Below, piece after piece: positions 1 through 34,045 of a stretch of DNA of 34,065 nt. The stretch covers positions 1-34,065 of the forward strand of contig JAQCNM010000173.1 in NCBI GenBank assembly GCA_028275025.1, read 5' to 3'. The position numbers were made by a program, and so were the translations under genes. Source of the DNA: Halovenus sp. (GTDB lineage Archaea; Halobacteriota; Halobacteria; Halobacteriales; Haloarculaceae). The notes beneath the pieces were generated by a model, which saw only the letters and a list, made by a program, of their open reading frames with translations, made no database searches and was not told where the DNA came from. Numbering within the stretch: position 1 is the first letter of the stretch; the number at the start of each line of letters is the position of its first letter.

Positions 1-195
1 GAAGAGCTAGAGCAGTACTACGAGTCGGAGATTCACCACGGACGACTGTACCCGAACCTCGACGAGCTCGTCGAGAAGGGGCTCGTCGAGAAGGGGGAGC
101 TCGACCGGCGGACGAACTACTACAGCCTGACACGACGGGGTCAGCGCGAGATCGACGCACGCCGTGACTGGGAGTCGGGGTACGTCGAGCTTTGA
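1..195 (+). CDS. PadR-like transcriptional regulator (C-terminal part)
   Basis: The frame is open from base 1 and stops with TGA at 193-195, giving the last 64 residues of a protein that begins before the window. The visible part reads like the second half of a PadR winged-helix domain. It has a recognition-helix segment containing HHGRLYPNLDELVEKGLV, then the wing with DRRTNYYSLTRRGQREI. PadR proteins are dimeric DNA-binding repressors, and haloarchaea carry many of them. The target and ligand cannot be told from this fragment. The call rests on motif recognition only; another winged-helix family such as a MarR-like protein is possible but fits less well. Confidence 0.75.
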   Translation, partial: EELEQYYESEIHHGRLYPNLDELVEKGLVEKGELDRRTNYYSLTRRGQREIDARRDWESGYVEL

Positions 196-32593: not shown

Positions 32594-32648
32594 TCCGGCC
32601 GTGTGGAACCGAAACCTTGAGGTGAGTCTTCGGGCTACAGTCGGACGG

Positions 32649-32720
32649 GCCTGGGTAGCTTAGCGGTAAAGCGCGTCCTTGGTAAGGACGAGACCCCGAG
32701 TTCAAATCTCGGCCTAGGCT
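32649..32720 (+). tRNA. tRNA-Thr (anticodon GGT)
   Basis: All four arms can be folded by eye. The acceptor stem GCCTGGG pairs with CCTAGGC (one G-T pair). The D arm is GCTT-AGCGGTA-AAGC. The anticodon stem CGTCC/GGACG holds the loop TTGGTAA, so the anticodon is GGT and reads ACC/ACU (Thr). The T arm is CCGAG-TTCAAAT-CTCGG. The discriminator base is T, and CCA is not encoded. No intron is present. The gene is the probable integration target of the element on its right. Confidence 0.95.
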
Positions 32721-32796
32721 TCCTTCCTCTTGATTTCGGGTGTTTCAGGCCTTCTCTGTGTTTCAGCTATGGCCCGAACTCAAGGACGAGACCCCG
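32684..32796. repeat. Direct repeat: tRNA-Thr segment and a copy 98 bases downstream
   Basis: AAGGACGAGACCCCG occurs in the tRNA (32684-32698) and again at 32782-32796. The match continues imperfectly for about 15 more bases, with TCAAA shared. This is the pattern left when a tyrosine integrase uses a tRNA gene as its attachment site. Confidence 0.65.
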
Positions 32797-32900
32797 GTGT
32801 CAAAACTGGCACCCCGACGGAGTATAGCGGTTACAGCAATTTGAATGGCTCTTTACATAAGCTATTTAAAACTTTGTTACGAAGTGATCTAGATCTGTAT

Positions 32901-32906
32901 AGGAGG
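32901..32906 (+). promoter_or_regulatory. Strong Shine-Dalgarno AGGAGG of the integrase
   Basis: AGGAGG lies five bases before ATG 32912. Such a perfect ribosome-binding site is unusual in haloarchaea, where most genes are leaderless. Together with the TATA-like CTATTTAAAACT near 32863-32874, it predicts a short leader of roughly 20 bases and fixes the start. Confidence 0.8.
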
Positions 32907-32911
32907 ATTCG

Positions 32912-34045
32912 ATGAGTATGACGGTTGAAGACGACAACAAAGTTCAGGGCATCATCCTTTTGACGGATGAGGCCTCGGAGTTTCTAAATCCTAGAGAGGA
33001 GATCGCGTACAGGGAGCATCGCCGCGAACTCGCGGAGTGGATGCTTAACTTGGGGAAAGACCCGGCGAAGGCTGAGGGTTACAGTCATTCGACTGCGAAG
33101 AATCGGATGAACAAGTTGGACTTGTTCTATCGCTGGGTCTGGGACCGAGAACAGCGCTATGTTCAGGATATTAAAATTGAGCATGCAGAGGCCTGGATGC
33201 GTGACTTGGCGAAGCGGGATTTGAAGGAGTCGACTAAGTGCCATTATCAGAAGTCAGTTCAGACGTTGTTCAAGTGGATGCGTGAGGCCCGGAACCGGGA
33301 TGTGGAGTGGGAGCCGAGCATCGAGTACAGCGACCCTTCAACGACTTACCAGCCCCGGGAGTATTTGACCCAGAGCGATCGGAAGAAGATGCGAGAAGCC
33401 GCCATGTCCTACGGGAGCGTCCCACACTACAACTCACTGAGTCCAGAGGAACGGACTCGGTGGAAGAAGCACTTGGCGCAGAGACTTCAGAAGCCGATGG
33501 AGGAAGTTACTAAACAGGATTTCTTGGAGGCGAATTCGTTCAAATACACTTCGATGATCTTTGTCGCGTTGGACGCAGGGTTCAGGCCTGTAGAGGTCAA
33601 GCGAGCGAATATTCAGTGGTTCGACCCGGATAACGGTGTCTTGAGAATCCCGGAAGAAGAATCGAGTAAGTCCCGGGAGAACTGGATTGTCGCGTTAAAA
33701 CCGGAGACCGTCTCCATCCTGAAGAAGTGGAAACAAGAACGCGATACCATCTCCAAGTACGATGGCCGGGATGCGATGTGGCTCACACAGAAAGGGAACC
33801 GGTACAACAAGGATAGCTTCCGGCGCTCAGTATTTCACAAAATCGCTGAGGAGGCAGGCCTCGACCTGGAGAACCGCGACCTCACACCATACAGCATACG
33901 GCATTCAACGGCGACGTATATAGCGAAGGAGGCGGACTTAGCTACCGCTGCGAAACAGTGCCGTCACAAATCCAAGCAGACGACGCAGAAGTACGCGCAT
34001 AGCTCGGTCGATAGGCAAAGCGACGCCATCAACAAAATAGACTAA
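32912..34045 (+). CDS. Tyrosine site-specific recombinase (integrase)
   Basis: A 377-residue phage-integrase-family protein. The N-terminal SAM-like core-binding domain spans about 30-130. The catalytic domain follows, with Arg225 (DAGFRPVEV), Lys253, Arg330 (YSIRHST), His352 (CRHKSKQ) and the nucleophile Tyr361 (TTQKYAH). The His of the usual HxxR box is replaced by Tyr327, a substitution seen in some recombinases. Its DNA is clearly poorer in GC, with more A/T third bases than the rest of the window, as expected for a virus or integrative element. It sits 191 bases after tRNA-Thr and points away from it; the rest of the element lies beyond the right edge. Confidence 0.92.
   Translation: MSMTVEDDNKVQGIILLTDEASEFLNPREEIAYREHRRELAEWMLNLGKDPAKAEGYSHSTAKNRMNKLDLFYRWVWDREQRYVQDIKIEHAEAWMRDLAKRDLKESTKCHYQKSVQTLFKWMREARNRDVEWEPSIEYSDPSTTYQPREYLTQSDRKKMREAAMSYGSVPHYNSLSPEERTRWKKHLAQRLQKPMEEVTKQDFLEANSFKYTSMIFVALDAGFRPVEVKRANIQWFDPDNGVLRIPEEESSKSRENWIVALKPETVSILKKWKQERDTISKYDGRDAMWLTQKGNRYNKDSFRRSVFHKIAEEAGLDLENRDLTPYSIRHSTATYIAKEADLATAAKQCRHKSKQTTQKYAHSSVDRQSDAINKID

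Follow-up and report, generated by a model that had tools for sequence, protein, structure and literature searches.

The short tRNA-like segment beside the integrase gene of the haloarchaeal contig analysed here, whose entire 34,065 nucleotides we refer to as the window, is likely to be a core-type half-site, named A1 below, that lies in the attP/attL arm of an integrated element and tracks the tRNA which this element targets. The repeat, its conservation, its fixed spacing from the core, its tracking of the target and its presence in the attP of a virus can be read from the sequences compared here, and together they support one of the explanations offered by an earlier sequence-only reading, namely an arm site of the integrase itself, which we can now sharpen to a core-type half-site within the arm. 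More tentatively, we propose that a widespread class of haloarchaeal integrases might use a composite attP arm, in which half-site copies (A1, A2) alternate with a universal motif and are rewritten when the target changes.

In the window, ARAGORN called a tRNA-Thr(GGT) at 32648-32723 on the forward strand, to which all features below belong, with the gene proper at 32649-32720. The identity between attL and attR in these relatives starts at the anticodon region, and the 3' part of the window tRNA-Thr, as the left attachment site, is presumably supplied by the element. The presumed core is the anticodon stem-loop CGTCCTT-GGT-AAGGACG (32674-32693), an inverted repeat around the anticodon whose right half-site, AAGGACGAGA, starts at 32684; the distal copies in relatives start at CTTGGTAAGGACGAG. 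Positions 32782-32807 repeat 32684-32709 of the tRNA at a spacing of 98 with 22 of 26 bases identical, the first 15 of which, AAGGACGAGACCCCG at 32782-32796 (site A1), are exact. The local score of 18 for this repeat was reached by none of 3000 order-1 Markov intervals (maximum 14) and by none of 1500 randomly chosen contig segments of 191 bases (maximum 11). The tRNA-like copy described by the sequence-only reading thus exists, but the repeated part is confined to the region 3' of the anticodon: the bases 5' of the anticodon have no match at the corresponding offset (nine tRNA types), so that the segment is a half-site, and neither a second tRNA nor a whole attachment core. This bears on the suggestion that it might be a nested attachment site, or a secondary one where the integrase recombines as well. 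The 15 bases shared with the right half of the core, together with the few T-arm bases, lend themselves to that idea, which we nevertheless regard as highly improbable given that the core left half is missing at the matching offset and that no A1 recombinants were seen in the relatives. The T-arm-like, weaker extension of A1 (32797-32807; 7 of 11 matching) was found only in the close relatives of the window and may be a chance match.

Further into the element lies B1 (32819-32832, at +98 after the tRNA), a target-independent arm-type motif that reads GGAGTATAGCGGTT in the window and is degenerate relative to the family consensus GCMGTCTTGCGATT. It is followed by a TATA-like TATTTAAAA (32863-32871), which is kept across the clade of the window and is a possible candidate for an integrase promoter within the arm, by a Shine-Dalgarno-like AGGAGG (32901-32906) ahead of the integrase start, and by the gene for a tyrosine integrase of 377 aa with a XerA-like core (32912-34045; PF00589, E 8e-20). 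The contig stops 20 bases past the integrase stop codon, and no further copy of the tRNA 3' half was found in the 79%-complete assembly.

At the tRNA-Thr genes of 11 relatives, a block CAAGRACGMG..CCCGG is found at the same distance as in the window, beside integrases that are 71-94% identical; in most of these loci it is followed by CCGACGC-GT-GCGATT, and other genera are among the relatives sharing both block and spacing. When genomes of the order were searched for the block pattern close to tRNA-Thr, 17 of 392 gave hits, versus 2 when the pattern was reversed. Among the relatives whose locus is complete enough, the closest is G357 (integrase 94% identical); its block is letter-identical to the window over AAGGACGAGACCCCGGTGTCAAAAC, although its tRNA, which reads GAGAGCCCGGG, differs from that of the window in the variable/T-arm sequence. 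From an identical A1 beside a different tRNA it follows that the block was not copied from the tRNA of the window genome, and that luck with the tRNA variant partly explains why all 15 bases match in the window. A scar of an earlier element or a tandem integration at the tRNA, as the sequence-only reading had also proposed, would account for the direct orientation of the repeat and for a similarity that reaches slightly into the T-arm, and stacked elements do exist, as in one genome (G287) with three tRNA 3' half copies in about 20 kb. However, the right half alone is repeated, and the same block stands at the same spacing in all relatives, other genera included, and in the free virus HF2. Moreover, in each of five block-carrying relatives (G144, G357, G353, G103 and G034) the contig holds one and only one distal tRNA 3' half, 36.8-93 kb away, as does that of G003 if it is circular, and a single distal copy in addition to A1 is the pattern of a normal single integration. 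This explanation, which the fixed spacing across independent integrase lineages and in HF2 largely refutes, thus seems barely credible to us. The sequence-only reading had named the presence of the same copy at empty sites as a finding that would refute it, and no such copy was seen: seven tRNA-Thr loci of the genus without an arm (L005, L006, L009, L012, L014, L016 and L017) have no A1, the matching at its position being at chance level (6-9 of 14), though L009 shows a match to B1 at +106.

The layout of the arm was compared across 141 related-integrase loci with an upstream tRNA, which cover 14 tRNA types. In the alignment, B1 is target-independent, being present at many kinds of tRNA. The layout was resolved with B1 as the anchor, whereas profiling by distance from the end of the tRNA blurred it too much. 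In the 98 loci with a good B1, the distance from B1 to the tRNA end is 99.3 +/- 4.2 bases and that to the integrase 120 +/- 47 bases. The hexamer GCGATT has 61 of its 93 occurrences within the single bin +100..109, compared with 11 in total on the other strand, and GTNNNGCGRTT occurs in 59 of 110 loci versus 7 of 391 other windows. Of the loci long enough to hold B1, about half lack its strict pattern, and in elements at tRNA-Leu, as well as in some at tRNA-Gly and tRNA-Arg, the gap is shorter and B1 is not clearly present. Given that B1 is fixed relative to the tRNA and loose relative to the integrase, the layout is measured from the recombination core, as is expected of an attachment-site arm, and B1 is in this respect a conserved arm site at fixed distance from the core, as found in a lambda-type attP. 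The location of A1 and B1 between the tRNA and int, near the TATA-like box, could also mean that they are operators which serve integrase autoregulation only, outside the recombination complex, and an overlap of attL with the int promoter as well as autoregulation are known for KplE1 of E. coli (PMC2951348). We consider this unlikely, as the spacing hardly varies relative to the tRNA core (sd 4) but varies widely relative to int (sd 47), and the distal arm, which is remote from int, has an inverted B-like site as well. As a separate observation, tRNA-Leu(TAG) loci (e.g. L187, L195, L198 and L200) have a different, shorter arm without B1, with near-exact tRNA-Leu half copies (CACGCTGTCCCG-like) ahead of the integrase.

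A1 stands at a fixed -36 from B1 and is similar to the segment that directly follows the anticodon in the tRNA of the same element. When the first ten bases of this segment, taken either from the own tRNA or from the tRNAs of other elements, were compared at 150 offsets from B1 (75 loci, nine tRNA types), two peaks emerged, at -36 (A1) and +26 (A2). Because -36 had been set by the tRNA-Thr finding, the test was repeated without any Thr locus, and -36 ranked first of the 150 offsets (p = 1e-4, permutation of tRNA groups). Permutation over 13 lineages of the integrase tree gave p = 1e-4 for A1 and p = 0.005 for A2, these sharper values having been obtained after the register was fixed and the anticodon position of Glu(CTC) corrected, and with few groups, while looser scoring by the best match in a 29-base window gave p = 0.005 for A1 and p = 0.30 for A2. 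Under the looser scoring, a control window (ctrl3, +46..+78) reached p = 0.002 and may hold a third A-like site, with near-copies in L031 and L036. The match of A1 to the own tRNA is partial and has a one-base wobble, amounting to 5.9 of 10 versus 4.4 when tRNAs are swapped, and three of the 13 lineages (L034 Gly, L047 Glu-TTC and L088 His) do no better than the permuted average. Examples of A1 and the corresponding tRNA are AAGCCAAGCACC and GAGCCAGGGACC for Arg, GAAGCTTACA and CAAGCTCATA for Gly, ACGGGCAAGC and ACGGCAAGG for Glu, and CAAGAACGAG and TAAGGACGAG for Thr. A2 is weaker than A1 and is not recognisable in the window or its lineage (3.8 of 10). The integrase tree contains 15 target changes, with Thr as target in at least two separate lineages, Arg in three and Glu(TTC) in three, and with the composite arm as a record of integrase specificity such changes would be readable from sequence alone.

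Halovirus HF2, which has been isolated, encodes an integrase 38.5% identical to that of the window, and its attP is annotated as a partial tRNA-Thr (PMC7230728). Downstream of its tRNA-like core lies an A1-like site (CCAAGAACG, ACCAAGAACGC), as well as an exact GCCGTCTTGCGATT at +99 after the core and an A2-like site, GTCAGGACAC. Since the attP of HF2 carries the same layout, the arm belongs to the free form of the element. For the other side of the element, nine distal arms at tRNA-Thr were compared (L217, L219, L224, L227, L229, L231, L232, L234 and L235), and in seven of them the best match to an inverted B-like site lies at -100..-102 from the anticodon, which, with weak scores and a single target type, is suggestive of a possible second arm. 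These distal arms also share a CTTGCCCGGTGTTT-type block farther out than the inverted B-like site, and the distal arm of G357 has an extra A-like copy, CAAGGACGAGAGCCCGGT, that is not conserved in the others.

HSTV-2-like integrases have been defined as archaeal tyrosine integrases that share 30% identity or more with a representative across 60% of the protein, and in which only the Pfam family Phage_integrase (PF00589) is detected (PMC8371274). The window integrase, which is 37.2% identical over 96% to that of HSTV-2, is HSTV-2-like by the published 30% identity criterion, and PF00589 is likewise the sole Pfam family detected in it, SAM_4 scoring 24.6 against a gathering score of 27. Its XerA-like match begins at residue 53, at profile position 8, and an AlphaFold2 model computed from five close sequences had a pLDDT of 40 and was unusable. 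In lambda-type integrases, the C-terminal domains read target-dependent core-type sites and the N-terminal domain reads target-independent arm-type sites (PMC2951348, PMC8371274), and the contrast between target-dependent A sites and target-independent B sites fits this logic. An N-terminal arm-binding domain, or any other known arm-binding domain, was not found by Pfam search in the window integrase, so that recognition of B1 may fall to a helper protein.

The arm is also traversed by a short open frame of 48 codons (32769-32915), which begins at a conserved ATG just upstream of A1 and whose TGA overlaps the ATG of the integrase; the counterpart in HF2 is annotated as HrrHF2_445. An ATG lies 40-59 bases ahead of B1 in 75 of 75 loci, and the frame is open as far as the integrase start in 59 of 75 loci versus 22 of 150 other frames, often with an ATGA overlap. 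These observations would suit a conserved short protein gene upstream of int, of which A1 and B1 are merely parts and to which the tRNA likeness is incidental. However, the coding test gave no support at the level of the peptide, which is not conserved (pN/pS of 0.6-1.5, about 1 in most groups, versus 0.15 for the integrase), B1 occurs in all three reading frames, and A1 tracks the tRNA, all of which makes such a gene very unlikely. An open frame without peptide conservation suggests a translated leader or translational coupling, and it is perhaps as a translated open leader that the frame runs through the arm.

Returning to the attachment-site arm, we propose the following mechanism. At a depth of about 98-100 bp within the element, A1 repeats the right half of the presumed core, from the anticodon loop into the 3' strand of the stem, and the integrase domains that recognise the core most likely bind A1 too. 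The arm-type B1 lies about 36 bp further in and is alike in all elements, independently of the target. Once the element is circular, A1 and B1 would form one attP arm, and the integrase, possibly with a helper protein, might bridge the core, A1 and B1 in a recombination complex. Given that the arm overlaps the region upstream of int, integrase bound there may in addition repress its own gene. If true, haloarchaeal viruses and elements would seem to build lambda-like recombination complexes, a fixed and target-tracking arm would be a way of defining attP precisely, and the many natural target switches could be used to study how integrase specificity changes.

As in phage lambda, the half-sites of the core would be inverted, arm-type sites independent of the target would stand at fixed distances, and attP would be longer than attB. 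However, lambda arms hold arm-type (and Xis/IHF) sites, whereas the arm in the window also has target-varying core-like half-sites (PMC8371274, PMC2951348), and unlike lambda Int, the window integrase has no recognised arm-binding domain. The haloviruses of the HF1 group (HF1, HF2 and Hardycor2; PMC7230728) share with the system described here a tRNA-Thr(GGT) target and a partial-tRNA attP beside a related integrase, as well as A1-, B1- and A2-like sites at the same spacing and a short frame overlapping int; their integrase is only 38.5% identical, and the available part of their description covers the tRNA-like attP without arm sites. In SNJ2, a pleolipovirus at tRNA-Met, a haloarchaeal tyrosine integrase is likewise associated with a tRNA and accompanied by small genes, but this system differs by another integrase family, a 13-14 bp core and its helper proteins (PMC8371274). 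In KplE1 intS/attL, the tRNA is followed by int in the same direction with arm sites in between, yet this system is bacterial, has a separate arm-type consensus and lacks target-tracking core copies (PMC2951348). A 2021 review of archaeal tyrosine recombinases describes att sites as requiring further nucleotides beyond the shared core, without using the term arm-type (PMC8371274), and in the open-access literature searched, we came across no account of such sites for archaeal integrases. Attachment-site arms are thus known from bacteriophages, while core half-sites that change with the target within the arm are, as far as checked, undescribed.

Several further observations concern the distribution of these elements. 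A search of viral contigs with the window integrase confirmed no relative. Two loci (L053 and L054) combine a haloarchaeal tRNA, the arm and an integrase (92% identity) in metagenome-assembled genomes named Clostridia and Halanaerobiaceae, and their contigs are probably mis-binned. Left arms with an A1-like block were also seen at tRNA-Thr in L011 (G016), L069 (G389), L003 (G013) and L004 (G012), where the integrase was not found and where some of the arms have B1 as well; these are probably decayed elements that retain part of the arm. Finally, the three tRNA-Thr 3' half copies of G287, on contig C3 at 325043-345501 (L216, L227 and L236), apparently represent a tandem of two elements, the outermost flank of which is similar to the flank of the HF2 attP.
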